From the NCBI GenBank assembly GCA_019429445.1, contig JAHYIW010000005.1, positions 1-64,000 on the forward strand: a DNA stretch of 64,000 nucleotides, written 5' to 3'. The position numbers and the translations under genes are program-made. Shown here in pieces: positions 44,075-58,788 of the stretch. The notes under the pieces are model-generated. The model saw nothing but the letters and a program-made list of their open reading frames with translations. It did not search any database and was not told where the DNA came from. Origin of the DNA: Desulfuromonadaceae bacterium. Lineage in GTDB: Bacteria; Desulfobacterota; Desulfuromonadia; Desulfuromonadales; JAHYIW01. Each line of letters begins with the position of its first letter. The first letter of the stretch is position 1.

Positions 44075-45064
44075 CTAGCGCGAAGCAGGCGAGTGGCGAA
44101 TGCGCGGGTCAGCGATAGCATAAGCGATATCTGCTAATAAATTCCCGGCCAGAGTCAATACGGCGCCCATCACCAGAACCCCCATGATTAACGGATAGTC
44201 TCTCATCATCACCCCGTCATAAAAAAGTTTGCCCATGCCAGGAATAGCAAAAATTGTCTCAAAGATCACGCTGCCTCCGATCAAGCCGGGAACCGACAAG
44301 CCAAGAAGAGTAATGAGCGGAAGAAGGGCGTTACGCAAGGCATGTTTGCCAATAACAACCTGCTCCGGCAACCCTTTGGCGCGAGCGGTGAGAATAAAGT
44401 CCTGCCCGATGACCTCAAGCATATTGGATCGCATATAACGGGAAAACCCCGCCAGTCCGCCAAACGCGGAGATCAGTACCGGAAGGATCAAGTGGCGGGC
44501 AACATCAAAAAAACGTCCGACTGGACCAAGGTATTCGTAGCCGAGTGATTTAATACCGGAAACCGGCAATAAACCGTAGCGAACGCCAAGCAAATCCATC
44601 AGCAGCAGGGCCAACCAGAACGACGGCATCGCGAAGCCGATAAAAACCAGAATCGTTGTTGATTTATCGAAAAATGAATTACGCCGGATAGCCGCAACGA
44701 TTCCCAGGGGAATCGCGACCGCGAGAATCACCAGAATGGCCAACAGGTTAATCATGATTGTTACCGGCAAACGTTCAAGCACCTTGTCTCGCACCAGCCG
44801 GTGATCGGACGCAAAGGAACGCCCGAAATCAAGGACCGCGAGCCGCCCGAGCCACTTTCCATAGCGGACCAGCAACGGCTTGTCCAGATCGTACTGGAGC
44901 CGCAGCCGTTGCTGGAATTCCGCGCTTACGTCGGGGTTCATCTGGGTCTGCAAGTCGGTCGGCTCGCCGGGCGCGAGATTGATAACTACAAAAGAAATGA
45001 GGGTGATTCCGAGCAAGAGCGGAATCATCATCAGCAGACGTCGAAAAATATACCGCAGCATCAT
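44075..45064 (-). CDS. Peptide/nickel-type ABC transporter permease (DppB-like)
   Basis: A 329-residue permease: [20 protein letters not shown] is the typical DppB start, followed by [10 protein letters not shown], the periplasmic N-region and about six membrane segments. The EAA loop is [25 protein letters not shown]. The C-terminal [20 protein letters not shown] and ADPRIRH are diagnostic. It lies seven bases downstream of the solute-binding protein, so those two are clearly one unit. No ATP-binding subunit gene is present in the region. Confidence 0.9.
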
Positions 45065-45071
45065 GCCCCCC

Positions 45072-46688
45072 CTATCGAGAGTACTTTTGCTCGGCGGCGG
45101 GAACGTACCAGCGAATAAAGTTATGTCTGATACCGGCAGGCGCCGCGTTTATCCCTCGAAAACGCTTGGCAACAACGGGTAACGCTTCAGCAATATAAAG
45201 AAAAGTATACGGTTGCTCTTCAGCCAAAATTTCCTGAAAACGATCATAATATTTTTTGCGTTCGACCAAATCGAAAGTACGCCGCCCTTTTTCCAGCATG
45301 TCATCGACATCATCATCTTTAAACCCGATAAAATTTAATTCACGCGGGCCAGTCTTGCTTGAATGCCAGATGTTGTACTGATCAGGTTCAGGTGTTCCGG
45401 ACCAGCCGAGAATCGTCGCGTCGAAGTTTCCCGGATTAATAAATTCCTGCAGAAACGAGGCCCACTCAATGACCCGCAACTTGACGTCGACACCAATTTC
45501 ACGAAAGCGCCGCTGAATGATCTCTCCCGTTTTGACACGCAGATCATTCCCCTGATTGGTGATGATCGTAAAAGTGAACGGTTTTCCATCATGATCAACG
45601 ATTCCGTCGCTATCGGTGTCCGTCCAGCCAGCTTCCGCCAACAGCTTCCTGGCCATCACCGGATCATAAGGATAGTGCTTCACCCGCTCGTTATAGACCC
45701 ATGAGTCCGGTTTGTAGGGCCCGGTTGCCGGGCGACCGAGACCAAGCAGGACGCCGTCAACAATTTCGTCCTTGTTGATCGCGTGCGACAACGCCTGACG
45801 CACCCGTTTATCCTGAAAGAGCGGGTTACGCAGATTGTAGCCGAGATACGTATAGCCAAATGAAAGATAACGAAATTTATTAAAGTTGCGCGAAAATGCC
45901 GGGGTATCGGTCTGCGTTTGATACTGCATCGGCGTCAACCCCATGAAGTCCAGCCCTCCTGATTGCAGTTCCAGAAATTGTGTCGACAAATCAGGGATCA
46001 AACGATAAACGATGCGTTTTATGTAGGGTGGTTTCTCAAAGTAGTCAGGATTCGCCTCAAGGACAAGCTTTTCACCACTCACCCACTCTTTAAACCGATA
46101 AGGGCCAGTACCGATCGGAGCACGCGACAAACGACTCGTCGTAATGTCATGTCCTGCGAGCAAATGTTGCGGATGAATAGCCACCCCCCAACTGATCAGC
46201 GCCGGAGCATAGGGTTGATCATAGCTGACACGAAAGGTGCCGGGGTCAGGTGCTTCAGCCCTGGTTACCTGGCGATAGCGCTCGGCATAAGCGGTGGGCG
46301 TGGCCGGATCAATGAACATGCGGTAGGTAAAGAGAACATCAGCGGACGTAAAAGGTGTCCCGTCATGCCACAATACCCCCTTTCGCAAATGAAATGTGAT
46401 CGTTCTCTGGTCTGCTGAAATCTCCCATGATTCCGCCAGGTCTCCCTCGATCTTCAGCTCCTTGTCATAACGAACCAGGCCATTATAAATCAACCCGTTA
46501 ATGTCAGCCGATGCAGAGTCGGAGGACAGCACCGGCAGAAGGTTGCTCGGTTCGCCGATAGATGCCTCGATAAACGTGTCACCGAACGCCGGTTTATCTT
46601 CAGCCGTGCGCTGGACAGGCACCGACTGACGATCACAGCCCGCAATAAATAGTGTACCCATGATAAAAATAACCATAAACCGGTGCAT
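45072..46688 (-). CDS. ABC transporter solute-binding lipoprotein, family 5 (oligopeptide type)
   Basis: A 538-residue lipoprotein with signal [19 protein letters not shown]. Family 5 features: [78 protein letters not shown] and [17 protein letters not shown]. Homologs bind oligopeptides, dipeptides, nickel or heme; the ligand is not predictable. DNA just upstream carries an inverted-repeat element (46769-46817). The paired permease is seven bases downstream. Confidence 0.9.
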
Positions 46689-46768
46689 AATTCTCGATCC
46701 TCAAATATGATGCTCTCGCAAAAACTCATGGGATGGCTAAGCAAAATTTCGTCCTGCAAGGCCTGGTG

Positions 46769-46817
46769 GTTTTTCAGGGGCGAAGACCTACATCAGGTAG
46801 GTTGAGATCCTGAAAAA
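46769..46817. repeat. Nested inverted repeat in the gap before the solute-binding gene
   Basis: TTTTTCAGG (46770-46778) pairs with CCTGAAAAA (46809-46817); inside lies ACCTAC-ATCA-GTAGGT-like hairpin (46787-46803). The flanks contain a further degenerate inverted pair: CGCAAAAACTCATGGGATGG (about 46718-46737) and CTTTTTGCGACGCCATC (46841-46857). This layout suggests a small non-autonomous repeat element; it could also act as a terminator or attenuator between the DUF4292-like gene and the transporter genes. Confidence 0.6.
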
Positions 46818-46855
46818 TCAGCGTAACGCAGTAGGGCGGACTTTTTGCGACGCCA

Positions 46856-47653
46856 TCAAATATCGTTCAGTTCGAATTTAACCGCACTTTCAGGAACATC
46901 CAATTCAAAACGTTGCGCGGGAATGATGCCATTCACGGTCGGCGAATCAAATTCTATCAGCACACTACTTTGGGCAGCCGGAAATTTGAGATGAATAACG
47001 GATGCAAAGCCTTCCGCCGTAAAAGCGGAATATTCGACCGTCAACAGTATCTGGTCCCCGCGCCACAAGCGCCCGGCAGTCAGCATTTTCTGCTGATTAA
47101 AGCGTAACTCCTGTGACAAACTGTCACCGGACAAAGTCACTACGTGATGACCGTCAGCATCAATCTCCGCGTGAAACGCCGCACGACCGATCGACGGCAA
47201 ACGTCCCAGCAACAGCGCGACAAAATCGCTTCCGGCAAGAGGCATGTGCGTCAAACGATAAAAACTTTCAACCGAGGCGGGACTTTTGAAATAACGATTT
47301 TCAGCGGGGAGAAAATAGCTGAGCGACTCCCCGTCGTTCACCAGAATATAGACCGGGCGTCCGAACAAACTGTAAAGTTCAGCTCTTAATTTATCGGGAG
47401 ATTCAGCAAACAGGGCATGATTGCCGCTGATGCTCTTGTCACCCATCGTGATCCTGATATCCGCCAGACCGGTAACGGATGAGAAGGTCGTGAAGTATTT
47501 TGCAAAATCCTCTTGCAGGAGATCTTGTTCAAAAGCTGGTGTTCCAGATGTCGAAAACAGTGATGAACATCCGCCCAGAAGCCCGCCGACAAACACCACC
47601 AGAAGAGTGAACATGCCGTACCAATAACGCATCATCCTTGAACCATGAACCAT
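46856..47653 (-). CDS. DUF4292-like outer-membrane lipoprotein (LolB-type fold)
   Basis: About 265 residues, with a lipobox GGC after a hydrophobic stretch (MFTLLVVFVGGLLGGC). The body alternates strands as in LolA/LolB-fold lipoproteins (FSSVTGLADIRITMGDKSIS, AELYSLFGRPVYILVNDGES, LPAENRYFKSPASVESFYRL). It most resembles DUF4292. The first ATG (47653) overlaps the TPR gene stop as TGATG; ATGs at 47635 and 47632 give a more typical signal peptide. Partner of the TPR lipoprotein; a role in envelope lipid or lipoprotein handling is inference. Confidence 0.7.
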   Translation of the reverse strand: MVHGSRMMRYWYGMFTLLVVFVGGLLGGCSSLFSTSGTPAFEQDLLQEDFAKYFTTFSSVTGLADIRITMGDKSISGNHALFAESPDKLRAELYSLFGRPVYILVNDGESLSYFLPAENRYFKSPASVESFYRLTHMPLAGSDFVALLLGRLPSIGRAAFHAEIDADGHHVVTLSGDSLSQELRFNQQKMLTAGRLWRGDQILLTVEYSAFTAEGFASVIHLKFPAAQSSVLIEFDSPTVNGIIPAQRFELDVPESAVKFELNDI

Positions 47654-49362
47654 CAGGGGAGTGCCTCCATCTTCTGCCGGATACGTTTTGTCTCGGCGGG
47701 GACACGCGCAATAATTTTCTCGTAGAGAGCTCGCGCGCTATCCCCGTCCCCCATTGCCCGACAAATATCGGCAAGATGTTCAGTGACAACCATGTCATCA
47801 GGAAGTTCAAGCATGACTTTTTCCAATGCACCTCGCGCTTCTTCGAGGCGTCCCAACTTGAAATAAATCCATCCTATCGTGTCGGCAATATGTGCTCCCT
47901 GATTCAAGGCATAGGCCTCTTGTGCCATCCGCAACGCTTCTTCGAGCATGATCCCTTCTTCAGCATAAGAGTAGGCAACGTAATTGAGTGCATCCGCATG
48001 TTTTGGCTCAACGAGGAGCACTTGTTGCATCACCTCACGCGCCCGATCACGCTGCTTCATCTGTTCCAGCACAACCCCCTGGTGATAAAGCAGATCTACC
48101 GTTGCGGGGAAACGTTCCAACCCCTGACCGAGAATGCCGATTGCGACAGAATAATCTGCCTCGTTTTCATACACTGAGGCGAGAGCTGAATAGACTTCAG
48201 CTCTCGCCTCGTGGTGAGCAATAATCTCCCGGAAAGTCGCAATGGCAGCATCGCGCTGCTGCAACATATGATAAAGGAATCCCCGGTGATAGAGTGAATC
48301 AAGATAAAGAGACGAGTTTTCCGGAATCGAAGCAAATGCGTCAAGCGCCTCACCGTAACGTTCGTCTCGTTCAAGCGCCGACCCGTAATAGTAACGAATT
48401 TCAGTCAAATCGGGATTAACTGCAAGAATGGTTGCAAACGAAGCCGCCGCAGCCTGATAATGACCGTCCTCAATTTCCAGCAGACCAAGTTTTCGATGCG
48501 CCTCAAGATCAAGCGGGTCTGCGACAAGCAGTAATTTCAATTCTCTTTTCGCCTCAGTGCGTAAATTTCGTTCAATGTAGAGGTCTATCAGTTTCCGCCG
48601 CAAGGTGGTGCTGTCGTCTGTAGCTTTGATTGCCGTGTTTAACAGTCTCTTGGCAGCAGCAAATTCCCCGCGCTCATTCAACATCATAGCCAGATCAATA
48701 ACCGCCGGTTCGTAATCGGGCTGATCCGTTAAAATTTCGCGCAGCATCCTTTCCGCCGCAGCTGGCGAATTTTCTTTCAAAAGGATTCGCGCCAGGACCA
48801 TGCGTCCGGTCAGGGTAGCAGGATGTAATTCGAGCAGACGGCGCAAAGTGGCTTCAGCCGCTGAAAAGTTTTCCTGTTTGTCATAAGCAAGGGCGAGATG
48901 AATATAAGGCTTTTCGATCTCAGGGGACAAGATCACCAGGCGCTCAAAGTAACGTACCGCGTCTTGATAATGACCGGTTCGAAAAGCAAGCGTACCTAGT
49001 TGCCATAAGGTTTCGAGGTTGTCGGGGTCCAGTTGATCGACAATTTCCGCTGCCTCCAGGGCGGCTGGATAAGCTTCGCTGCGAAGTGCCAATTCAATAA
49101 AAAACCTGCGCAGATAAATTGACTCTGGAGCGGCGTCCACGGCCTGTTGCATCGAACTGAACGCGGCTGACAAGTCGCCACGGGCAAGTTGCAGCCGAGC
49201 CCGGCCATAAAAATAAAGGCTCTTCGACTCAGGTGCATCAAAAACAGAGTGATACCTGTCGGCAACAACGGTATCAGCAGAATGTCCACCATCAATCAGG
49301 GGGAGAGCACAGCCGGACAAAAACAAGAGGCCTGTGAAAAATAAATAAACGGATTTCGACAT
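47653..49362 (-). CDS. TPR-repeat lipoprotein
   Basis: A 569-residue lipoprotein with signal MSKSVYLFFTGLLFLSGC-A. The rest consists of about 13-15 tetratricopeptide units in tandem, e.g. GRARLQLARGDLSAAFSSMQ, LAFRTGHYQDAVRYFERLV, LALAYDKQENFSAAEATLRR, GWIYFKLGRLEEARGALEKV. Such proteins are scaffolds for complexes in the periplasm or outer membrane. It is the first gene of the minus-strand series; a DUF4292-like lipoprotein is coupled to it. No specific function can be assigned. Confidence 0.85.
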   Translation of the reverse strand: MSKSVYLFFTGLLFLSGCALPLIDGGHSADTVVADRYHSVFDAPESKSLYFYGRARLQLARGDLSAAFSSMQQAVDAAPESIYLRRFFIELALRSEAYPAALEAAEIVDQLDPDNLETLWQLGTLAFRTGHYQDAVRYFERLVILSPEIEKPYIHLALAYDKQENFSAAEATLRRLLELHPATLTGRMVLARILLKENSPAAAERMLREILTDQPDYEPAVIDLAMMLNERGEFAAAKRLLNTAIKATDDSTTLRRKLIDLYIERNLRTEAKRELKLLLVADPLDLEAHRKLGLLEIEDGHYQAAAASFATILAVNPDLTEIRYYYGSALERDERYGEALDAFASIPENSSLYLDSLYHRGFLYHMLQQRDAAIATFREIIAHHEARAEVYSALASVYENEADYSVAIGILGQGLERFPATVDLLYHQGVVLEQMKQRDRAREVMQQVLLVEPKHADALNYVAYSYAEEGIMLEEALRMAQEAYALNQGAHIADTIGWIYFKLGRLEEARGALEKVMLELPDDMVVTEHLADICRAMGDGDSARALYEKIIARVPAETKRIRQKMEALP

Positions 49363-49583
49363 TTAGATTGCAGCCCAACTTCAAAGCATTTATGTTCTTA
49401 ACATAACTGTCATCAAATTATCATTTCGCCTTTAAGTGGTCAAACTTTCTTTTAGTTCTTCATCCGCTCTGAATCGGCTCAAAACAGTAACTTCAGCCAA
49501 ATCCAACAAGGGTATCGACACCGGGGAAAAGCTCCATTATACTTAACCGTAAAGTGAATTGTCACAATCCATGAGAGTCTGAC

Positions 49584-49829
49584 ATGAAACGAATCAACAA
49601 GGAACGGTTGCGTGATGCGTGGATTCTGTTTTTCATCCTCGGCATCATCATGCTGAACTATCCCTTTCTGGAGATATTCAACAAAACCGTGCAAGTCATG
49701 GGGATTCCCCTGCTGGTTGCATATTTTTTCATTGGCTGGCCAATCTCGATCCTGGTCATCTTTTTCTTTTCTCGTTCGCTGACCACCAAAGGGGAAAAGA
49801 AAGAAAAAACCCCCATTGAGAGCTTATGA
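49584..49829 (+). CDS. Small two-segment membrane protein, likely subunit of the adjacent symporter-like protein
   Basis: Eighty-one residues with two membrane segments (AWILFFILGIIMLNYPFLEI; LLVAYFFIGWPISILVIFFF) and charged ends. The stop overlaps the ATG of the symporter-fusion gene (ATGA), which implies balanced translation. Small two-segment proteins (DUF485, DUF4212 and similar) often precede sodium/solute symporters and act as accessory subunits; this one has the same layout, though I do not assign a family. Upstream (49363-49583) is the divergent promoter region shared with the TPR gene. Confidence 0.75.
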   Translation: MKRINKERLRDAWILFFILGIIMLNYPFLEIFNKTVQVMGIPLLVAYFFIGWPISILVIFFFSRSLTTKGEKKEKTPIESL

Positions 49830-52800
49830 TTCCAACTGGCATAGTCACTACAATCACTTTTTTGTATTTTGTGCTGCTCTTCTCGGTCGCCTACTACGCG
49901 GACCAGCGCCGCAAGAGCGGTCGCAGCCTGATCTCAAACCCCAACATCTACGCCCTTTCGCTGGCGGTTTACTGCTCGTCCTGGACCTTCTATGGCAGTG
50001 TTGGCCGGGCCGCAACCAGCGGTCTTGATTTCATTGCCATTTATGTCGGACCAACGCTGATAGCGTTCTCCTGGTGGTTTCTGCTACGCAAAATGGTGCG
50101 CATCAGTAAAGAACAAAATATCGTCACCATCGCCGACTTTATCTCCAGCCGTTACGGAAAATCTGTTTTTCTTGGTGTGGTTGTTACAATCTTCGCGATT
50201 GTCGGCATTACCCCCTACATTGCCCTGCAACTAAAGGCCATTGCCCACACCTTCAACCTGATCGCGTTATCTTCCCATTCAGCAGTTGACGACTATGCAC
50301 TCCAATTTCCGACTTTCATCGATACCGCCTTGTTCGCAGCCATCATCCTTGGCGTGTTCGGCGTCCTGTTTGGAGCCCGAAGTCTTGATGCCACGGATCG
50401 TCACGAGGGGCTGGTCGCGGCGGTTGCGTTCGAATCACTGGTTAAACTGGTGGCCTTTTTGTCTGTCGGTATTTTTGTCACTTACGGGATATTTGACGGG
50501 TTCGGGGATATTTTCAGTCGTTTTCTTGAACGCTTTCCAGAACGCGCCGACCTGCTTTTGTTGAATACCGAAAAGGTCCCCTACTCAACCTGGTTCACCC
50601 TGACCTTTGTCTCAATGATGGCCTTCATGTTCCTGCCCCGCCAGTTCCATATTATGGTCATCGAAAATTCACAGGAAGACCACATCAAATCGGCCATGTG
50701 GCAATTCCCGACCTATCTCTTTCTGATCAATCTTTTTGTGATTCCGATTGCGCTGGGCGGTTTGCTCCTGTTTGGCGGAGACAACTCAGCGGCAGACTAC
50801 TTCGTGATTTCCATTCCGTTGCAGGCCAATCACCCATGGCTGGCACTCTTCGTCTTCATCGGCGGATTTTCCGCGGCAGCGGGAATGGTCATGATTTCTT
50901 CAGTATCCCTCGCCACGATGATTCTCAACCATCTGGTCATGCCGATTATCTTGCGGATTCCGTCCCTGGCGAACAAGAACCTTTCGCGCATCTTGATCAA
51001 TATCAAGCGCAGTGCAATCATGGCCGTTGTCCTGATCGGTTACATCTATTACAAAATCATCGGCGACTCCTACGCACTGGTCAATATCGGCCTGATCTCT
51101 TTTATTGCCGCAACCCAGTTTGCCCCGGCGATGATCGGCGGTATCTATTGGCGGCAGTCGACCCGATTTGGAGCAAGTGTCGGCATGATTGCGGGATTTA
51201 CTATCTGGTTCTATACCTTGCTGATCCCGGCATTCTGTCGCTCAAACTGGTTGCCGAATGATATCATCGACCATGGATTATTTGGCATCACCTTGCTCAA
51301 ACCGCTTGAGTTATTTGGCCTGAGCGGTTTTGATATGTGGACCCATTCTCTTTTCTGGACGTTGTTTTTTAATCTCGGGTGTTATCTGACCATTTCATTA
51401 CTATCCACTCCGAGTGCGACCGAAAGAGAACAAGTCCATAAATTCGTTGATGTTTTTTCAACCCGTGTTCCCCAAATTGAACGTAAACGTTTCAACAAAG
51501 CCCCCTCCCTGCTCGAATTTGTCGAATTAATGGCCAAATTTATCGGTGAGAAACAAGCTCATGCAGCGATCTCCGAGTATCTTGGCGATCGTGACATTGA
51601 CGAAAAAGGCAGCGTTTCCGAGAATGAGTTATTAACCCTGAAAAGCTTTGCCGAACGCACGTTAGCCGGGTCCGTCGGTGCCGCACCGGCCAGAATCATC
51701 ATTGACAACTACCTTGTCACCCGGGGCAGTACCATGGAAGACGTCTTCGATATTTTTGGCTCGGTCACGCTCAGCCGTACCAGTAGCCGGGAGCAACTCA
51801 GTGTTCTCTACGAGTCCGCCCGTGCGGTTTCCGGGGGCGACAACTTAAATGAAATCCTCGACAACATTTTACATATATTGCGCCAGCAGTTTAAATTTGA
51901 CCTGTGTACGATCCGGCTGTTGGACGAAGACCGTTCACTGCTGACCGTCATCGCCCAGGATGGCATGAGCACCGAGCATTTCGATAACGCGGACCGTGAT
52001 TTGACGATGAACAATTATGTCGGTGCAACCTTCTTGACGAATAAGGAAACCGTCATCAACGATGTCGAGTTGATGAAACGATCACAATTTATCGGCATTA
52101 TCCAGCGTGAAGGTATCAAATCGTTTGCCCACATGCCGATTACCATTGAAGGCCAGCCGATCGGCGTCCTTTCAGTTTTTTCAAAAAGTGTCAAAGGAAT
52201 ATTCACTCCCGAGTTTATCGAACTCTTCCACAGCCTCGCCGTACAGATTGGTATCGCCAAACGCAATGCGGATCAAACCGAACACCTCATTGCCGCACAT
52301 GAACAGCAAAAAGAGCTGCAGATCGCCAAAACAATTCAACTCGGGCTACTCCCCTTAAAGGCCCCTGACATTGCAGGAATTGACCTTGCCGGTATCTGCG
52401 TGCCCGCCCGTCAGGTGGGGGGGGATTACTACGATATCCTCCCTACTGACCGTGATACTATTGACCTGGTGATTGCTGACGTTTCGGGTCATAATGTCGG
52501 TGCGGCACTGATCATGGCGGAAACCAGAACATTCATTCATTCTAAAATCAATGAGAATTACCCCTTGTCGGTCATGCTTAATCAGCTGAACGAATTTTTT
52601 CATGATGATTTGTCCCGCGCCGAACTGTTTGTTACCATGTTTTACCTTCGTTATGTCCATGGCAGGAGAACCCTGACCTACACCAACGCCGGGCACAACA
52701 AGCCTCTGCTCTGGAGAAAAGCCACTGAAGCATGCGAACACCTTGATACCGAAGGAATGATCCTGGGGATCAAGAGAAATGTTGTTTTTGAAGAACATCA

Positions 52801-53035
52801 GACCGTCATGCAGCCGGGAGACACCCTCCTCCTCTACACAGACGGAATTGTTGAAGCAGAAAACTCACAAGGGGATTTCTTTGGTATCGAAAGACTGAGC
52901 GCACTGCTCAATGAGCACCATACCTTACAGGCACAACAAATGATTGATACGATTATGCAACAGGTCAGACTTTTTACCGGGCTGCATTCTTTTGTAGATG
53001 ACATCTCTCTCTTGATTATGAAAGTTACAGACTGA
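49826..53035 (+). CDS. Sodium/solute symporter domain fused to GAF and SpoIIE-type phosphatase (putative sensor phosphatase)
   Basis: A 1069-residue fusion. Residues 1-530 are a sodium/solute-symporter (SSF) domain with about 13 membrane segments (ALSLAVYCSSWTFYGSVGRA, NIVTIADFISSRYGKSVFLG, AFMFLPRQFHIMVIENSQED). A cytoplasmic linker (about 535-650) with KSFAERTLAGSVGAAPARII resembles the one joining SSF and kinase parts in CbrA-type sensors. A GAF domain follows (about 655-815; LDNILHILRQQFKFDLCTIR). The C-terminal PP2C/SpoIIE domain (about 830-1068) shows LVIADVSGHNVGAALIMAET, LFVTMFYLRYVHGRRTLTYT, NAGHNKPL and LLLYTDGIVEAENSQGDFFG, with the metal Asp residues present. The STAS and RsbW-like genes downstream are the expected substrate and kinase. 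Confidence 0.9.
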   Translation: MIPTGIVTTITFLYFVLLFSVAYYADQRRKSGRSLISNPNIYALSLAVYCSSWTFYGSVGRAATSGLDFIAIYVGPTLIAFSWWFLLRKMVRISKEQNIVTIADFISSRYGKSVFLGVVVTIFAIVGITPYIALQLKAIAHTFNLIALSSHSAVDDYALQFPTFIDTALFAAIILGVFGVLFGARSLDATDRHEGLVAAVAFESLVKLVAFLSVGIFVTYGIFDGFGDIFSRFLERFPERADLLLLNTEKVPYSTWFTLTFVSMMAFMFLPRQFHIMVIENSQEDHIKSAMWQFPTYLFLINLFVIPIALGGLLLFGGDNSAADYFVISIPLQANHPWLALFVFIGGFSAAAGMVMISSVSLATMILNHLVMPIILRIPSLANKNLSRILINIKRSAIMAVVLIGYIYYKIIGDSYALVNIGLISFIAATQFAPAMIGGIYWRQSTRFGASVGMIAGFTIWFYTLLIPAFCRSNWLPNDIIDHGLFGITLLKPLELFGLSGFDMWTHSLFWTLFFNLGCYLTISLLSTPSATEREQVHKFVDVFSTRVPQIERKRFNKAPSLLEFVELMAKFIGEKQAHAAISEYLGDRDIDEKGSVSENELLTLKSFAERTLAGSVGAAPARIIIDNYLVTRGSTMEDVFDIFGSVTLSRTSSREQLSVLYESARAVSGGDNLNEILDNILHILRQQFKFDLCTIRLLDEDRSLLTVIAQDGMSTEHFDNADRDLTMNNYVGATFLTNKETVINDVELMKRSQFIGIIQREGIKSFAHMPITIEGQPIGVLSVFSKSVKGIFTPEFIELFHSLAVQIGIAKRNADQTEHLIAAHEQQKELQIAKTIQLGLLPLKAPDIAGIDLAGICVPARQVGGDYYDILPTDRDTIDLVIADVSGHNVGAALIMAETRTFIHSKINENYPLSVMLNQLNEFFHDDLSRAELFVTMFYLRYVHGRRTLTYTNAGHNKPLLWRKATEACEHLDTEGMILGIKRNVVFEEHQTVMQPGDTLLLYTDGIVEAENSQGDFFGIERLSALLNEHHTLQAQQMIDTIMQQVRLFTGLHSFVDDISLLIMKVTD

Positions 53036-53105
53036 AAATCCATAACTATGTTAATATTCAGGTAGTTTGAATAACCGCGACAGAAAGTATACCGAGGAGC
53101 AAAAA

Positions 53106-53441
53106 ATGGAACTGATTCTTGACGAAAAAAACGGCATCGTCACCATCACCGTAGAAGAGGAACGCCTTGATGCACACAACAGTGGCGAACTGAAAACCAG
53201 AATGACCAGCCTGTTCGAGGATGAGAAAAGTAACATCATTGTCAACCTCAAGGCTGTTCGTTTTGTTGATTCTTCAGGGCTTGGTGCCCTGGTATCAGGC
53301 TTTAAAAACGCGAGTGCGCGCAATGGCAGCCTGAAGCTCTGCGGACTACAGCCACAGGTTAAATCGATGTTCGAATTGACCCGGCTGCATCGAGTCTTTG
53401 AAATATTCACCGACAGTGAAGAAGCCTTCAGCAGTTTCTGA
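53106..53441 (+). CDS. STAS-domain anti-sigma factor antagonist
   Basis: A 111-residue single STAS domain: MELILDEKNGIVTITVEEER, LDAHNSGELKTRMTSLFEDE and the phosphoserine loop AVRFVDSSGLGALVSGFKNA. The Ser of DSSGLG is the site phosphorylated by a RsbW-type kinase and dephosphorylated by a SpoIIE-type phosphatase. Start at 53106 behind GAGGAGC; the frame begins earlier at 53067. It lies 70 bases after the fusion gene and 14 bases before the kinase gene, so the three partner-switch parts are in order. Confidence 0.92.
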   Translation: MELILDEKNGIVTITVEEERLDAHNSGELKTRMTSLFEDEKSNIIVNLKAVRFVDSSGLGALVSGFKNASARNGSLKLCGLQPQVKSMFELTRLHRVFEIFTDSEEAFSSF

Positions 53442-53455
53442 TTTTCGGGAAAGTG

Positions 53456-53881
53456 ATGCGTGAACGTATCGACATTGACATCAAGGTGCCAAATCAGACC
53501 CGCTATTTAAGCTTGATCGGGAAGATTGGTGAGGATGTGGCACGCACCATCAAAAGATTCGATGGTGACAGGGAGAAGCTCGCCTACAATGTCAACGTCG
53601 TACTAACCGAGGCAATGGCAAACGCCATTCTCCACGCCAACCGGGATGCACCGGATCCCGAAGTACACGTCCGGATATCAGTTTTTGAGCGGGTGTTGAC
53701 CATTGAGGTGTTTGATCAGGGGCAGGGGTTTGATATCGACGCACTGCCCGCCCATAACCCGGACAGTTGTCATGAGTCAGGGCGCGGTATTTATATTATG
53801 CGCTCCCTCATGGATCGTATCAGCTATAAAAAGTCGAAGAACGGCTATGTGCTCGTCATGGTCAAATCGCTCTCTGCCTGA
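53456..53881 (+). CDS. RsbW-like anti-sigma serine kinase (HATPase_c)
   Basis: A 141-residue GHKL ATP-binding protein: N-box LTEAMANAILHANRDAP with the metal Asn and catalytic Glu, G1-box DQGQGFDI and G2-box SGRGIYIMRSLMDRISYK. Such kinases phosphorylate the STAS partner and bind and release a sigma factor or another target. No sigma-factor gene is adjacent, so the final target is elsewhere. Start ATG at 53456, with GGGAAAG upstream (a GTG at 53453 is possible). Confidence 0.9.
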   Translation: MRERIDIDIKVPNQTRYLSLIGKIGEDVARTIKRFDGDREKLAYNVNVVLTEAMANAILHANRDAPDPEVHVRISVFERVLTIEVFDQGQGFDIDALPAHNPDSCHESGRGIYIMRSLMDRISYKKSKNGYVLVMVKSLSA

Positions 53882-53917: not shown

Positions 53918-54550
53918 TCACAACCAACAACCAATCAATGGCGCAAGCTCTTTATGGTGAGTGACACAACATTCGCCGGGGAAACTGGTCTGATACCCGA
54001 CAAAACGAATCTTTGCACGTTGCGCAGCGAGTTGATCGAGGTGTGAATCACCAACAAACACAAGTTCATCCGGGTCGATTCCCAGTTGTCGTGAAACCAG
54101 CTGCAACATATCGGGGCAAGGTTTGGGCCGGGCAACATCGCGGCTGGTAACCACAGCTGAAAAATAGTGTCGTAACGCAAAATGTTCGAGAATTTCATGC
54201 ATACTCGTGCCGCGATTAGTTGCTACAGCCAACCGAAACCGCTTCGTCAATGTGATCAACGCCTCTTCAATCCCCGGCTCCAGCTGCATGAACGGCATAA
54301 ATTGCCGAAAACCGAGTGTCGCTGCGAAATCAAGTGCGGCGGAAACCCGCTCCTGACCGAGCAATTCCGCAAAAACGACCGGGCTTGCAGCCGTATGACA
54401 AAGGTAGGCGCGTTGCCGGTCTTCTTCATCAGCCTGGACCGGGGCGACGCCAAAATATTCCAGAACAGTATTATAGTAAGCAAGATTGGCGGCACGACTT
54501 TCAAACAAAACGCCGTCGCAATCGAAGACTACACCACGCGTCACCGGCAT
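53918..54550 (-). CDS. HAD-superfamily hydrolase, phosphoglycolate-phosphatase-like
   Basis: A 210-residue HAD enzyme with motif I VFDCDGVLFESRAANLAYYN (nucleophile Asp and acid Asp), motif II AVATNRGTSMHEILEHF, motif III Lys in DVARPKPCPDML and motif IV FVGDSHLDQLAAQRAKI. The alpha-helical C1 cap lies between motif I and II. Substrate unknown; sequence is nearest the Gph group. The ATG at 54550 overlaps the lgt stop by ten bases. The much longer frame upstream runs through lgt and is rejected. Confidence 0.82.
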   Translation of the reverse strand: MPVTRGVVFDCDGVLFESRAANLAYYNTVLEYFGVAPVQADEEDRQRAYLCHTAASPVVFAELLGQERVSAALDFAATLGFRQFMPFMQLEPGIEEALITLTKRFRLAVATNRGTSMHEILEHFALRHYFSAVVTSRDVARPKPCPDMLQLVSRQLGIDPDELVFVGDSHLDQLAAQRAKIRFVGYQTSFPGECCVTHHKELAPLIGCWL

Positions 54551-55332
54551 TGTTTCGCTCCGCGTTGACAGACGTAATAAATTCCGGCAACACCTGTCAG
54601 CATCATCGGCAAAGACAACCACTGCCCCATACTCAATCCTGCAGCAAGGAGCCCCAGATGAGCATCCGGCTGGCGAAAATATTCTATTCCGAAGCGGCAT
54701 AACCCATACCCGAAAAGGAACGCGAAACAAACGAAACCCAGCGGGAAATGGCGGCGATGAAACCACCACAGCAGGAGAAAGAGGAACACCCCTTCAAAAA
54801 ATGCTTCATACAATTGACTGGGGTGTCGCGGTAGCGGCCCTGCCCCAGGGAAAATCATCCCCCATGTAACCGTGGTTGTTCTTCCCCATAATTCAGCATT
54901 AATAAAATTTCCGATGCGCCCGAAAAACAGGCCAATCGGTGCCGCACCAGCGAGCAGATCACCGACCATCAACCGCGACAACTTGCGCCGCCAGCAAAAG
55001 ATCATCCCGGCAACAAAAACCCCGAGAAAACCTCCATGAAAGCTCATGCCCCCTTCCCATACCGCAAACATGCTCAGCGGATTAGCCAAAAAATAAGACA
55101 AATTGTAGAACAGCACATAACCAAGCCGACCACCGACAACAACACCAATGACACATTGAAAGATGAGATCCCCGACATCATCTTTGGACAGCGCAAAATG
55201 ACGCAAGCGAACCAGATAGTTTATGTAGAGGTACCCACCGATAAAACCGCACAAGTACATCAGACCGTACCAGCGAACAGCCAATGGACCGAGGCGAAAA
55301 ATTATCGGATCAAAGTGTGGATAGGAAAGCAT
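54541..55332 (-). CDS. lgt: Prolipoprotein diacylglyceryl transferase
   Basis: A 263-residue inner-membrane enzyme with about seven segments that transfers diacylglycerol to the lipobox cysteine. The Lgt signature is FGRIGNFINAELWGRTTTVT; also FHGGFLGVFVAGMIFCWRR with the catalytic-region His-Gly-Gly and PRHPSQLYEAFFEGVFLFLL near the C-terminus. Start ATG at 55332. Several substrates are encoded in this window (Slp, peptide-binding protein, TPR and DUF4292-like lipoproteins). Confidence 0.92.
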   Translation of the reverse strand: MLSYPHFDPIIFRLGPLAVRWYGLMYLCGFIGGYLYINYLVRLRHFALSKDDVGDLIFQCVIGVVVGGRLGYVLFYNLSYFLANPLSMFAVWEGGMSFHGGFLGVFVAGMIFCWRRKLSRLMVGDLLAGAAPIGLFFGRIGNFINAELWGRTTTVTWGMIFPGAGPLPRHPSQLYEAFFEGVFLFLLLWWFHRRHFPLGFVCFAFLFGYGLCRFGIEYFRQPDAHLGLLAAGLSMGQWLSLPMMLTGVAGIYYVCQRGAKQCR

Positions 55333-55357
55333 GTCTCCTCCTGAACATCTCAGCGGT

Positions 55358-56296
55358 TTACGTCAGTTCTCGAATTTTACGCAACAAATCGGCCATATCA
55401 GCTGGTATCGGTGCCGTACAATTTAACATTTCACCGTTGAACGGATGAGCCAGGGCAAGGGTTTTCGAATGCAACATCGTGCGTGGCACATCCTGCTCGT
55501 GCCATGCAACGGCCCCTCCATAAAAGGGATCGCCCAGAATCGGACACCCGGTTTCAGCCAGATGAACCCTGATCTGATGAGACCGACCGGTCAGGATTTC
55601 CACTTCAAGCAACGCCGTGTCGGCAAATTGTTCAATCACGCGGTAGCGGGTAACCGCTTCCTTGCCACCGTACGGCACGGACTTTACACGGTTTGCATCG
55701 CGTGTTCGCGCCAGGTTGGAAACGATCTCCCGTTCCGCAGTCGGCGGCTGTCCCGCAACCAGCGCCAGGTAGCTTTTTTTCACCCGTCGTTCAGAAAATG
55801 CCTGGGTCAATGGCCGATGTGCCCGAACATGAGTTGAGAAAAGAATCGCCCCGGAAGTTTCCCGGTCAAGTCGCTGAATCATCCCCAACTCGGGTTTCTT
55901 CTGCGCATGCCGACTGCGATCAGTGCCGAGCAAAGTCAGTACCGCCTCGTAAAGTGTCCCTTTATAACGTGCGGCAGTTGGTTGTGTTTCGACCAGTGGC
56001 GGTTTCGACAAAACCAGCAAATACTGATCCTGATAGAGAATATCATCCGCCGTGACGCGATATGGAATGAGCGGTAAACCGTCGAGTGTGACCTCAAGCA
56101 CATCACCACAAACAACGTCCATACCGCATTTCCTGATCCGTCGTCCATTGTGACTCACACCGCCGATATCAATAATCTTGCGCAGGAGTGTGCGACTCAA
56201 TTCCGGTTCAACGGCCGGCAGGTATTGATCCAGGCGCATCCCGGAATGACTGGCATCAACACAGCGTCGATATGTTTTTCTATTTACATCCGCCAT
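55358..56296 (-). CDS. RluA-family pseudouridine synthase
   Basis: A 312-residue enzyme with an N-terminal S4 RNA-binding domain (SGMRLDQYLPAVEPELSRTL) and a RluA catalytic domain: the catalytic Asp lies in MIQRLDRETSGAILFSTHVR; further conserved is LTGRSHQIRVHLAETGCPIL-GDPFYG. It modifies uridines in rRNA or tRNA; the RluC/RluD/TruC subgroup cannot be decided by eye. It precedes lgt by 25 bases and diverges from the 6S RNA gene. Confidence 0.88.
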   Translation of the reverse strand: MADVNRKTYRRCVDASHSGMRLDQYLPAVEPELSRTLLRKIIDIGGVSHNGRRIRKCGMDVVCGDVLEVTLDGLPLIPYRVTADDILYQDQYLLVLSKPPLVETQPTAARYKGTLYEAVLTLLGTDRSRHAQKKPELGMIQRLDRETSGAILFSTHVRAHRPLTQAFSERRVKKSYLALVAGQPPTAEREIVSNLARTRDANRVKSVPYGGKEAVTRYRVIEQFADTALLEVEILTGRSHQIRVHLAETGCPILGDPFYGGAVAWHEQDVPRTMLHSKTLALAHPFNGEMLNCTAPIPADMADLLRKIRELT

Positions 56297-56324
56297 AATA
56301 TACCGAAAAAAGATTGTTCACAGA

Positions 56325-56352
56325 TTGACTTGGAGCTCGACCATGATATCGT
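56325..56352 (+). promoter_or_regulatory. Candidate promoter of the 6S RNA gene
   Basis: TTGACT (56325-56330), a 16-base spacer, then TATCGT (56347-56352). Transcription would start near 56359, about 14 bases before the closing stem of the RNA. It fits the usual strong sigma-70 control of ssrS, but the -10 is imperfect. Confidence 0.5.
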
Positions 56353-56372
56353 GGCAAAGAAGTGCCAACAAC

Positions 56373-56536
56373 TTCGGGATGGATGATTGGCATAGGAGCA
56401 TGACCAACACACCCAAGCAGGTTCAACTCAGGGAATGGTGAGCAAGCCCGTAGTAAAGAACGGGACGCCTTAAGTTCCGCTACCTGAACCTAACTGTTTC
56501 GCAGGGTCATGATTGCGTGACCGTCGCCATCCCGAA
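56373..56536 (+). ncRNA. ssrS: 6S RNA
   Basis: The plus-strand sequence forms the 6S architecture. Closing stem: UUCGGGAUGG (56373-56382) with CCAUCCCGAA (56527-56536), perfect. Next CAUGACC (56399-56405) with GGUCAUG (56505-56511), then AGGUUCA (56419-56425) with UGAACCU (56485-56491). A large central bubble follows, then the terminal hairpin CCCG-N10-CGGG (56447-56464). The segment UGGUGAGCAAGCCCG and GACGCCUUAAGU matches the best conserved block of E. coli 6S RNA (UUGGUGAGCAUGCUCGG and AGAAGCCUUAAAACU). 6S RNA binds sigma-70 RNA polymerase in stationary phase. It lies between divergent rluA-type and convergent ihfB and is followed by a strong terminator. Confidence 0.85.
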
Positions 56537-56539
56537 ATA

Positions 56540-56583
56540 CAAAACTCGAAAGCCCCGTCTGATGACAGGGCTTTCGAGTTTTG
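56540..56583. terminator. Bidirectional terminator of 6S RNA and ihfB
   Basis: CAAAACTCGAAAGCCC (56540-56555) and GGGCTTTCGAGTTTTG (56568-56583) form a perfect 16-bp stem with a 12-base loop. The A/T-rich base gives a T-run on either strand. Confidence 0.88.
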
Positions 56584-56617
56584 TATAATCCGCTGTTGTC
56601 CCGCCAGAGGTCGACAC

Positions 56618-56899
56618 TCATGTGCTTGCGACTCTTTCACGCAGATCCTTCCCCGTTTTGAAGAATGGTGTCTTTTTTGCCGGAATTCGCACCACTTCAC
56701 CACTTTTTGGATTTCTTGCTTCGCGGGCATCACGACAACGCACTGTAAACGAACCAAAGCCACGGATCTCAACACGTTCACCGGCAACCAATGCATCACC
56801 GATGCTGTCGAATATCGTATTGACAATCGATTCTGCATCACGCTTGTTCAGAATATCGTTTGACTCCATTAATTGTTCAATCAACTTACTTTTCGTCAT
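56618..56899 (-). CDS. ihfB: Integration host factor beta subunit
   Basis: A 93-residue HU/IHF protein: MTKSKLIEQLMESNDILNKR, DALVAGERVEIRGFGSFTVR and the DNA-intercalating arm region ARNPKSGEVVRIPAKKTPFF with the key Pro after RNP (RNPKSGE). It bends DNA with IhfA, which sigma-54 promoters such as that of glnB often need. It lies downstream of rpsA with its own ribosome site (GGAGGTG), an order common in proteobacteria, but a terminator stands between them so it needs its own promoter or readthrough. Confidence 0.9.
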   Translation of the reverse strand: MTKSKLIEQLMESNDILNKRDAESIVNTIFDSIGDALVAGERVEIRGFGSFTVRCRDAREARNPKSGEVVRIPAKKTPFFKTGKDLRERVAST

Positions 56900-56987
56900 T
56901 TTTCACCTCCAGCGGAACAAGGATTATCCGCTCAACAACCAAACATCACAATGATAACATTGAGCATACTGAACCGAAAAAACAAGA

Positions 56988-57036
56988 CAAAAAGCGCGCA
57001 TCGGGTGCAGCCGCCCGGCGGCAGCACCCGATGCGC
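56988..57036 (-). terminator. Terminator after rpsA
   Basis: On the minus strand GCGCATCGGGTGC pairs with GCACCCGATGCGC (57036-57024 with 57008-56996), a perfect 13-bp stem, followed by GCTTTTTGTC and further T residues. The stem starts four bases after the rpsA stop codon. Confidence 0.88.
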
Positions 57037-57039
57037 TGT

Positions 57040-58788
57040 TTACTTGACTCCCTTGCCTTCAGATCCGCTATTTGATTTATCCATGGCCCCTTGCAATAAA
57101 TCACCGAAATTCGACGTCGCGGTTTGTTGGGCACCAAGGAATGCATCAACTTCCGCTTTCTCCTTCTGGTGTGCCAGATGCTTGATCGACAGCGCGATCT
57201 TGCGATCAACCGTATCAACATTCAACACGACAGCTTCGAGGTTTTCGTCGACACTGGCGAAATTCTTCGGCGAATCAATTTTTTCTTTACTGATTTCAGA
57301 AACGTGAATCAGCCCTTCGATCCCTTCTTCGATCTCAAGGAAAATACCGAAGTCCGTTACCGATGTCACGACACCGTTAACGATAGTTCCCGGCAAGTAT
57401 TTCTTCGGGATATCCTGCCACGGGTCACTGGTCAACTGTTTAACACCGAGTGAAAAACGCTCATTTTCACGATCGATGTTAAGTACCACAGCCTTGACTG
57501 TGTCCCCTTTTTTATAGAGCTCCGAAGGATGTTTAATGCGCTTGATCCACGACAGATCGGAAATATGAACCAGACCATCAATCCCTTCGTCAACCCCGAC
57601 AAAGATACCGAAATCGGTAATATTCTTGACCTGACCTTCGATGATCGTTCCGATCGGGAACTTCTCGCCGATAACCTCCCAGGGGTTCGGATCAACCTGC
57701 TTCAGCCCCAGAGAAATGCGACGGTTGTCAACGTCAAGCGCCAAAACCACGCTTTCGACTTCATCACCAACGGCAAGCAACTTGTTCGGGTGTTTAACGC
57801 GCTTGGTCCAACTCATTTCCGAAACATGAATCAACCCTTCAACACCTTCTTCAAGTTCGATAAATGCGCCGTACTCGGTCAGACTGACAACCTTACCCGT
57901 AACCCGATTGCCGATAACATACTTGTCTGCCACAGCCAACCAGGGATCAGGAGCAATTTGTTTCAGGCCGAGCGAAACACGCTCTTTCTCACGGTCATAC
58001 TTGAGAATCTGAACATTGATACTATCGCCCACATTAAGAATATCGGAAGGATGCGTCACCCGTCCCCAGGACATGTCAGTAATGTGCAGCAACCCATCGA
58101 TACCGCCCAGGTCAATAAATGCACCGTAGTCAGTCAGGTTCTTGACAACCCCCTCGATAATCAAACCTTCTTCGAGTTTGCCCAGGGTATCTCTACGCAT
58201 CCCTTCGCGTCGGTCTTCAAGCAAAACCCGGCGGGAGAGAACGATATTCCCGCGCCGCTTGTTCAACTTGATAATTTTGAACTGGTAGGTTTCACCAATC
58301 ATTTTTTCAAGATTACGTACTGGCCGCAGATCAACCTGCGATCCGGGCAGGAAGGCATTCACGCCGATATCGACGGACAAGCCGCCCTTGATCCGCGCGA
58401 CGATGCGGCCATCAACGACGGCATCCTCTTCGAGCATGTTCCAGATTTTTTGACGATCGGCTTTTTCTTTCGACAGGCAGATCAGCCCGCTATCAGCCTC
58501 GGTCCCTTCATACATAACATCGTAGGTATCACCGACCTTGACATCAATCTGAACGCCTTCATCGGTGAACTCGCGGAGCGGGATGACCCCTTCGGATTTA
58601 AACCCGACGTCAACCACCACTGCGTCTCCCGCGATTTGCACGACAGTACCGGTAACGACATCGCCGTAGTTGAGTTCCTTGAGACTGTTCTCGAACATGT
58701 CGGCGAAACTTTCTTCCATTTCACCAAGCTCTTCATTTTCCAGTTCGTCAATCTGTGCTTCGTTAGTTGTTGCGTTGTTTTCCACCAT
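57040..58788 (-). CDS. rpsA: 30S ribosomal protein S1
   Basis: A 582-residue S1 with six S1 (OB-fold) repeats. Repeats 3-6 are clear from GLLHITDMSWGRVTHPSDIL, GLIHVSEMSWTKRVKHPNKL, GLVHISDLSWIKRIKHPSEL and GLIHVSEISKEKIDSPKNFA. The two N-terminal repeats (from MEESFADMFENSLKEL, GDVVTGTVVQIAGDAVVVDV) bind the ribosome via S2. Start at 58788. It is downstream of cmk as in many bacteria, but the ispH gene often found between them (sometimes fused to rpsA) in related bacteria is absent; only 221 bases separate the genes. Confidence 0.95.
   Translation of the reverse strand: MVENNATTNEAQIDELENEELGEMEESFADMFENSLKELNYGDVVTGTVVQIAGDAVVVDVGFKSEGVIPLREFTDEGVQIDVKVGDTYDVMYEGTEADSGLICLSKEKADRQKIWNMLEEDAVVDGRIVARIKGGLSVDIGVNAFLPGSQVDLRPVRNLEKMIGETYQFKIIKLNKRRGNIVLSRRVLLEDRREGMRRDTLGKLEEGLIIEGVVKNLTDYGAFIDLGGIDGLLHITDMSWGRVTHPSDILNVGDSINVQILKYDREKERVSLGLKQIAPDPWLAVADKYVIGNRVTGKVVSLTEYGAFIELEEGVEGLIHVSEMSWTKRVKHPNKLLAVGDEVESVVLALDVDNRRISLGLKQVDPNPWEVIGEKFPIGTIIEGQVKNITDFGIFVGVDEGIDGLVHISDLSWIKRIKHPSELYKKGDTVKAVVLNIDRENERFSLGVKQLTSDPWQDIPKKYLPGTIVNGVVTSVTDFGIFLEIEEGIEGLIHVSEISKEKIDSPKNFASVDENLEAVVLNVDTVDRKIALSIKHLAHQKEKAEVDAFLGAQQTATSNFGDLLQGAMDKSNSGSEGKGVK

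Follow-up and report, generated by a model that had tools for sequence, protein, structure and literature searches.

How could a transporter-like membrane sensor govern a serine phosphatase, when the relatives described in Pseudomonas and rhizobia carry histidine kinases? This question is raised by a stretch of 64,000 nucleotides (the window) from a Desulfuromonadaceae bacterium (assembly GCA_019429445.1, contig JAHYIW010000005.1, positions 1 to 64,000), in which four co-directional genes, apparently forming one operon (49584-53881), encode a small two-helix membrane protein, a sensor phosphatase that fuses SLC5, STAC, GAF and PP2C domains, a STAS antagonist and an RsbW-type kinase. We consider it quite likely that the fusion protein is a CbrA-like transceptor phosphatase which drives a partner switch of the RsbUVW type; this estimate leaves aside the candidate target, RpoS, and the candidate ligand, a carboxylate, which are graded separately below. 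The basis of this reading is observed: the domains, the predicted fold, the intact residues, the class-wide gene order and the single complete set of parts in the genome.

The sensor phosphatase and its probable partner proteins

The open reading frames that a sequence-only reading of the window had proposed are all present (Table 1). Using phmmer, we found that residues 10-632 of the fusion (623 residues) align with the SLC5-STAC part of Pseudomonas CbrA (10ed_A, E 1.8e-74), and Pfam assigns SSF at 2e-8. An AlphaFold2 model calculated from 31 sequences (mean pLDDT 83.8) contains a complete SLC5 fold in residues 1-548, with Z ~30 to CHT1/SGLT, which bears out the full symporter domain claimed beforehand. 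Lysine K196 of CbrA, which sits in the Na2 site and is believed to render transport proton-dependent (PMC13022988), corresponds to K207 here (50444-50446). This lysine is present in 100/101 PP2C-type rows of the alignment, the remaining row being a gap. Moreover, the pocket-region residues Y51, S53, W55, F71, Y75 and F406 of CbrA are identical in the fusion (Y49, S51, W53, F69, Y73 and F426), and the invariant columns of the alignment fall mostly in the SLC5 domain.

The alignment runs on through the STAC domain of CbrA, up to residue 632, and it is this joint SLC5-STAC alignment that identifies the linker, described earlier only as CbrA-type, as a STAC domain. Four helices are predicted for the region in the model. 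Residue G574 is found in 77/77 rows and A578 in 73; the reported STAC motif is LGPx(x)A (PMC4834066). When the STAC region alone was compared with the PDB as a single sequence, chance calmodulin matches were returned and nothing significant.

Neither HisKA nor HATPase_c was detected by Pfam in the fusion protein, whose C-terminus is a SpoIIE domain. Model residues 839-1069 match the RsbU domain of Rv1364c (Z 26.4, rmsd 2.3), SiaA being also matched, and residues 669-815 match the GAF domain 2QYB (Z 20.9). We take the acidic residues D867, D885, D1006, D1058 and D1059 to be the metal-binding set, as is usual in PP2C enzymes. Among the rows with a letter, D867 is conserved in 65/65, D885 in 62/65, D1006 in 60/60, and D1058 and D1059 in 59/59. 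The metal residues, whose loss had been named as a possible refutation, are therefore not lost, and the Pfam matches, the fold matches of the model and the CbrA alignment agree on the proposed SSF-GAF-SpoIIE architecture. The GAF domain is likewise retained in PP2C-type members. The domain 2QYB, from Geobacter sulfurreducens, is closest to the GAF domains of such fusions (61-63% in loci L050/L052, 84% in genome G156), and this comparison makes it probable that the fragment in the crystal came from the orthologue in G. sulfurreducens. It is a structural-genomics entry for the GAF domain of a 'putative membrane protein', so that a fragment of the family was seemingly solved in 2007 and went unrecognised.

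The two proteins encoded downstream are labelled by NCBIfam as an anti-sigma factor antagonist and as RsbW-like. The alignment of the STAS protein with SpoIIAA takes in the acceptor serine (S57), which lies in a DSSGLG motif that is invariant in 53 rows of the STAS alignment. The kinase matches RsbW (6m36, E 7.6e-14) and also SpoIIAB, and its N-box and G-box residues (E52, N56, H60, D87 and GRG) are found in 51/51 rows with a letter. With these acceptor and catalytic residues intact, and with the Pfam matches to STAS and HATPase_c_2 (Table 1), the antagonist and the RsbW-like kinase stand as they had been read.

The small protein is predicted to fold as a two-helix hairpin (mean pLDDT 77). An alignment of 27 relatives revealed the conserved residues N25, P27, F32, G40, P42, Y47 and W52, in the pattern N-x-P-F...F-N...G-x-P...Y...W. 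Its stop codon overlaps the ATG of the fusion gene as ATGA, which is indeed read at 49826-49829, and the same ATGA occurs in 36/52 related loci where the gene pair was scored. No family was found for it in Pfam or the PDB, it did not match DUF3311 (PF11755, small symporter subunits), and a profile search of PDB chains recovered no CbrX chain, no CbrX sequence having been compared. In other Proteobacteria, relatives of the small protein are encoded ahead of kinase-ended SLC5 sensors, for example in Paracoccus with a 4-base overlap, and in Azoarcus ahead of a GGDEF-EAL SLC5 sensor. In place and topology (a two-helix hairpin, directly upstream, with overlapping genes) the small protein is CbrX-like. 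The suggestion that it may be an essential subunit needs correction as to essentiality: CbrX packs on TM3 and TM8 of CbrA, yet it is dispensable for growth on histidine (PMC13022988).

Table 1. Features of the operon and of the encoded sensor phosphatase (positions in the window)
Feature	Position	Strand	Basis
Promoter-like site TCGACA-17-TATACT, 5' of the small gene	49515..49543	+	consensus scan, 10/12 matches
Small two-helix membrane protein gene, 81 aa	49584..49829	+	open reading frame (ORF)
SLC5-STAC-GAF-PP2C sensor phosphatase gene, 1069 aa	49826..53035	+	ORF, Pfam, alignment, model
SLC5 (sodium/solute symporter) domain, residues 1-530	49826..51415	+	phmmer 10ed_A, fold match
STAC domain, about residues 562-632, FIGEKQA motif	51509..51721	+	CbrA alignment
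GAF domain, residues 673-811	51842..52258	+	Pfam 2.6e-17; 2QYB E 6.1e-26
Long helix, residues 795-841 (47 residues), GAF to PP2C	52208..52348	+	model secondary structure
SpoIIE/RsbU-type PP2C phosphatase domain, residues 842-1067	52349..53026	+	Pfam 6.7e-52
STAS antagonist gene, 111 aa	ATG 53106, stop ends 53441	+	ORF, Pfam 1.8e-21, NCBIfam ant_ant_sig
RsbW/SpoIIAB-type GHKL kinase gene, 141 aa	ATG 53456, stop ends 53881	+	ORF, Pfam 3.7e-24 (HATPase_c_2)

The promoter-like site ends 40 bases before the small gene and is a consensus match alone, with no proof of function. Terminator-like sites on the + strand, also consensus matches only, all lie within the coding sequence of the fusion, and their number equals the chance expectation. 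The flanking genes (44075-49362 and 53918-58788) are on the opposite strand and encode a peptide ABC transporter, lipoproteins and a TPR protein on one side, and a HAD hydrolase, an lgt-like and a pseudouridine-synthase-like protein on the other. The same genes surround the operon in several relatives, including family f17. As the sequence-only reading had it, none of the flanking ORFs that were read was recognised as a sigma factor or response regulator.

Distribution, gene order and history

A contig scan for relatives returned 79 loci, nearly all from Desulfuromonadales. All four genes are present in 46/63 fusion loci; in most of the others the contig stops short, and six loci are true orphan fusions (L014, L028, L031, L034, L050 and L068). 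The full set of four genes is also present in 14/15 loci retrieved for further families of the class. Gene-order conservation, which had been put forward as a check and whose absence would have told against the reading, is thus found well beyond the immediate relatives, and the operon is not a chance arrangement because the same order is kept class-wide. Within the order, the fusion occurs in 119/136 genomes and the kinase family in 132/136, nearly always as a single copy. Across the class Desulfuromonadia, the fusion was found in 221/271 genomes, in 160/187 good genomes and in 73/82 genera. The class, that of Geobacter and Desulfuromonas, comprises metal- and sulfur-reducing bacteria used in electrode and metal-reduction work, and the operon represents a near-core, apparently uncharacterised regulatory system within it.

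Some loci depart from this arrangement. One clade of paralogous fusions lacks both the small gene and the STAS/RsbW neighbours. Loci L124-L133, from family f17, have neither the small gene nor the SSF-PP2C gene, and other SpoIIE phosphatases lie elsewhere in the genomes. Two SSF-PP2C genes, one of them with a small-protein gene, lie within 11 kb in genome G001 (L136:3089-14188), which also carries an SLC5-GAF-histidine kinase (L143). An in-frame stop interrupts the fusion gene in two cases, reflecting sequencing error or decay (G105:C1:2788806-2792012 and G085:C141:14-3217), and a Chloroflexi-labelled contig (L021), whose operon is near-identical to those of Desulfuromonadaceae loci L023 and L024, is probably misbinned. 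A plasmid search for full-length SSF-PP2C fusions found none covering 80% of the query.

A tree built from 87 SLC5-STAC sequences gathers the 70 PP2C-type rows into a single group (SH-aLRT 97), which adjoins kinase-ended proteins of Desulfobulbaceae and Syntrophales; the sample is confined to relatives that this query retrieved, and the outer part of the tree is unsure owing to long branches. The outputs encountered with this front end are a histidine kinase, a kinase with receivers, a kinase with receivers and Hpt, GGDEF-EAL, and PP2C. The simplest history for this tree would be a single exchange of output at the base of the PP2C-type group. The GGDEF and EAL case is encoded on plasmid pAZKH of Azoarcus sp. 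KH32C (L146:3146-6689), with a CbrX-like small protein upstream; its annotated coding sequence begins too late and omits part of the SLC5 domain.

Proposed mechanism, target and ligand

We propose that the SLC5 domain, of the CbrA/CrbS type, together with the CbrX-like two-helix subunit, would bind and perhaps transport a small solute. Its conformation would be relayed through the STAC domain, the GAF domain and the long helix to the RsbU/SpoIIE-type PP2C domain, and the GAF domain may read a second, cytoplasmic signal. The active phosphatase would dephosphorylate the STAS protein at S57, and the free STAS protein would bind the RsbW-type kinase, releasing the target; in the absence of the signal, the kinase would re-phosphorylate the STAS protein and the target would be held. 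The direction of signalling, the coupling of solute to phosphatase, the target and the ligand are thus what we infer, and the earlier suggestion that solute binding or transport sets STAS phosphorylation seems plausible.

Several points weigh against this reading. The SLC5 domain of CbrA has been reported as non-essential for signal perception (PMC9100948). Family f17 lacks the fusion in every genome, yet STAS and RsbW are retained, and in the genomes read they occupy the same chromosomal setting; loss or replacement of the sensor can therefore leave the switch in place, and other phosphatases may run it. Indeed, two or more SpoIIE phosphatases are encoded by most genomes of the order. In the loci read, no sigma-factor gene adjoins the operon, and RpoS is nearly universal in the order, so that its co-occurrence with the operon is uninformative about the target and was dropped as evidence. 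Finally, the pocket comparison given below is one of sequence alignment only, and the ligand-related neighbours come from few loci.

The report on CbrA lends itself to another explanation, in which the SLC5 domain is a membrane anchor or relict and the GAF domain is the true sensor, reading a cytoplasmic signal (redox, nucleotide or metabolite); the switch would be the same and transport irrelevant. The retention of the GAF domain in PP2C-type members, with a close GAF solved from G. sulfurreducens (2QYB), agrees with it. An anchor, however, would not need the strict class-wide retention of the pocket residues and K207, nor an SLC5 domain that holds most of the invariant columns, and we regard this explanation as unlikely. 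The lack of an adjacent sigma-factor gene would also fit a kinase with another output, such as a diguanylate cyclase or a second kinase, or a STAS protein that is itself the effector, as in HsbA-HsbD, where phosphorylated HsbA binds the cyclase HsbD (PMC6482189). A front-end relative is fused to GGDEF-EAL, in line with this idea, whereas the solved proteins closest to the kinase, RsbW and SpoIIAB, are both anti-sigma factors; a non-sigma output is in our view a sizeable minority possibility. It might also be that adjacency is a chromosomal habit and that the sensor phosphatase serves different STAS proteins or different targets, as could be supposed from the paralogous fusions without STAS/RsbW neighbours in some genomes and from the several SpoIIE phosphatases in most. 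Given that the genome of the window has one such phosphatase and one STAS protein, and that the gene order is kept class-wide, this is very improbable.

If the operon is a transceptor-driven partner switch, what does it control? A family-by-family search of the genome of the window (99.99% complete) found a single SpoIIE domain, a single STAS match and a single stand-alone RsbW-type kinase, each of them encoded in the operon. The other HATPase_c_2 matches all fall in ORFs of 400-760 aa, which we read as histidine kinases and rejected as stand-alone anti-sigma kinases. Three sigma-70 proteins were found by PF04542, namely RpoD, an RpoS-like and an RpoH-like protein (L092, L093; C13, C21). No FliA or ECF sigma factor was found with this family, and sigma-54 was not searched for. 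The RpoS-like gene adjoins a LysM/M23 lipoprotein gene, an nlpD-rpoS-like order recognised from its sequence. The neighbourhoods of the paralogues contain transport and metabolic genes and no sigma factor. Because the genome has one partner switch and three sigma-70 proteins, and since RpoS is the proven target of the CrsR-CrsA switch of Shewanella and the HsbR-HsbA switch of P. aeruginosa (PMC6482189), RpoS would be the likeliest target of the kinase, with close to, and just short of, an even chance. The target had been called open: no adjacent gene supplies it, and yet the choice is narrower than was thought, with one switch and RpoD, RpoS-like and RpoH-like proteins only.

As to the ligand, three residues of the CbrA histidine pocket, F248, A56 and H257, are replaced by Ser, Thr and Arg (R272), and likewise in most of the kinase-ended relatives sampled; Arg at the H257 position is found in 16/16 kinase-type and 96/101 PP2C-type rows. 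These replacements argue for a ligand other than histidine. Among the characterised non-CbrA relatives, CrbS serves acetate and RpuS pyruvate (PMC9100948). SSF-PP2C paralogues that lack STAS/RsbW neighbours are found next to TRAP transporters (L034:993-2588, L137:8208-10905 and L142:1907-3334), with a ScpC-type succinyl-CoA:acetate CoA-transferase (L034) and a GlcD-type dehydrogenase (L142) also nearby. Given the Arg, Ser and Thr of the pocket, these neighbours and the acetate and pyruvate relatives, a short carboxylate (acetate, lactate or pyruvate) is tentatively the likeliest ligand class, with a chance somewhat below even. A broader proposal, a class-wide transceptor by which uptake or binding of the main electron donor (a carboxylate, e.g., acetate) would directly decide, through serine phosphorylation, whether RpoS is released or captured, and in which paralogues for other substrates would feed the same STAS-RsbW hub, is doubtful at present.

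In either form, the operon would provide an apparently uncharacterised route by which a transporter-like protein controls a transcription programme. Because this genome has one of each part, transporter-like sensor signalling and stress sigma factor control could be tested by a few deletions.

Comparison with known systems

No paper on an SLC5-STAC-PP2C protein or on its Geobacter gene was found in the literature searched. GSU1427, discussed in a G. metallireducens genome paper, was considered and set aside as a different, frameshifted phosphatase-kinase protein.

The closest comparison is with CbrA/CbrX of Pseudomonas (structure 10ed), which shares SLC5 and STAC over 623 residues, the Na2-site lysine and a small two-helix protein encoded upstream by an overlapping gene. 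CbrA has PAS and histidine kinase domains and acts with a response regulator, whereas the fusion has GAF and a PP2C serine phosphatase and is partnered with STAS and RsbW-type proteins; F248, H257 and A56 of the CbrA pocket are also exchanged, as described above. CrbS/MxtR and RpuS, hybrid kinases for acetate and pyruvate, resemble the fusion in front-end family and architecture, as compared by description only (PMC9100948), but their outputs are kinase and receiver domains, and they signal via LuxR-type regulators.

On the output side, the operon resembles RsbU-RsbV-RsbW and SpoIIE-SpoIIAA-SpoIIAB in its PP2C phosphatase, STAS antagonist and GHKL kinase, all with the defining residues, and differs from these switches in its SLC5 transporter-like input and in having the target gene outside the operon. 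CrsR-CrsA of Shewanella and HsbR-HsbA of P. aeruginosa are likewise Gram-negative partner switches, and those control RpoS. In those two systems, however, phosphatase and kinase are fused to a receiver and take two-component input, while here they are separate and the predicted input is SLC5.

The sequence-only reading had stated that known SSF-linked sensors end in histidine kinases. The kinship with CbrA stands; the exclusive link to histidine kinases does not, given the SSF-GGDEF-EAL protein of Azoarcus and the actinobacterial SSS proteins, carrying GAF, PP2C_SIG and HATPase_c, that a 2021 review mentions (PMC7918813). The latter, known by description, share the combination of symporter, GAF and PP2C with our fusion. 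They were found through a HATPase_c search and belong to another phylum, and STAC, a small subunit and a partner operon are not in their description (PMC7918813). The combination of SSS, GAF and PP2C is thus not wholly unprecedented, and a STAC-linked PP2C with a CbrX-like subunit and its own STAS/RsbW pair is, to our knowledge, undescribed. Seen beside these systems, the CbrA-type front end appears as a portable sensor that has been joined in evolution to kinases, to cyclic di-GMP enzymes and, here, to a serine phosphatase with a full partner switch.

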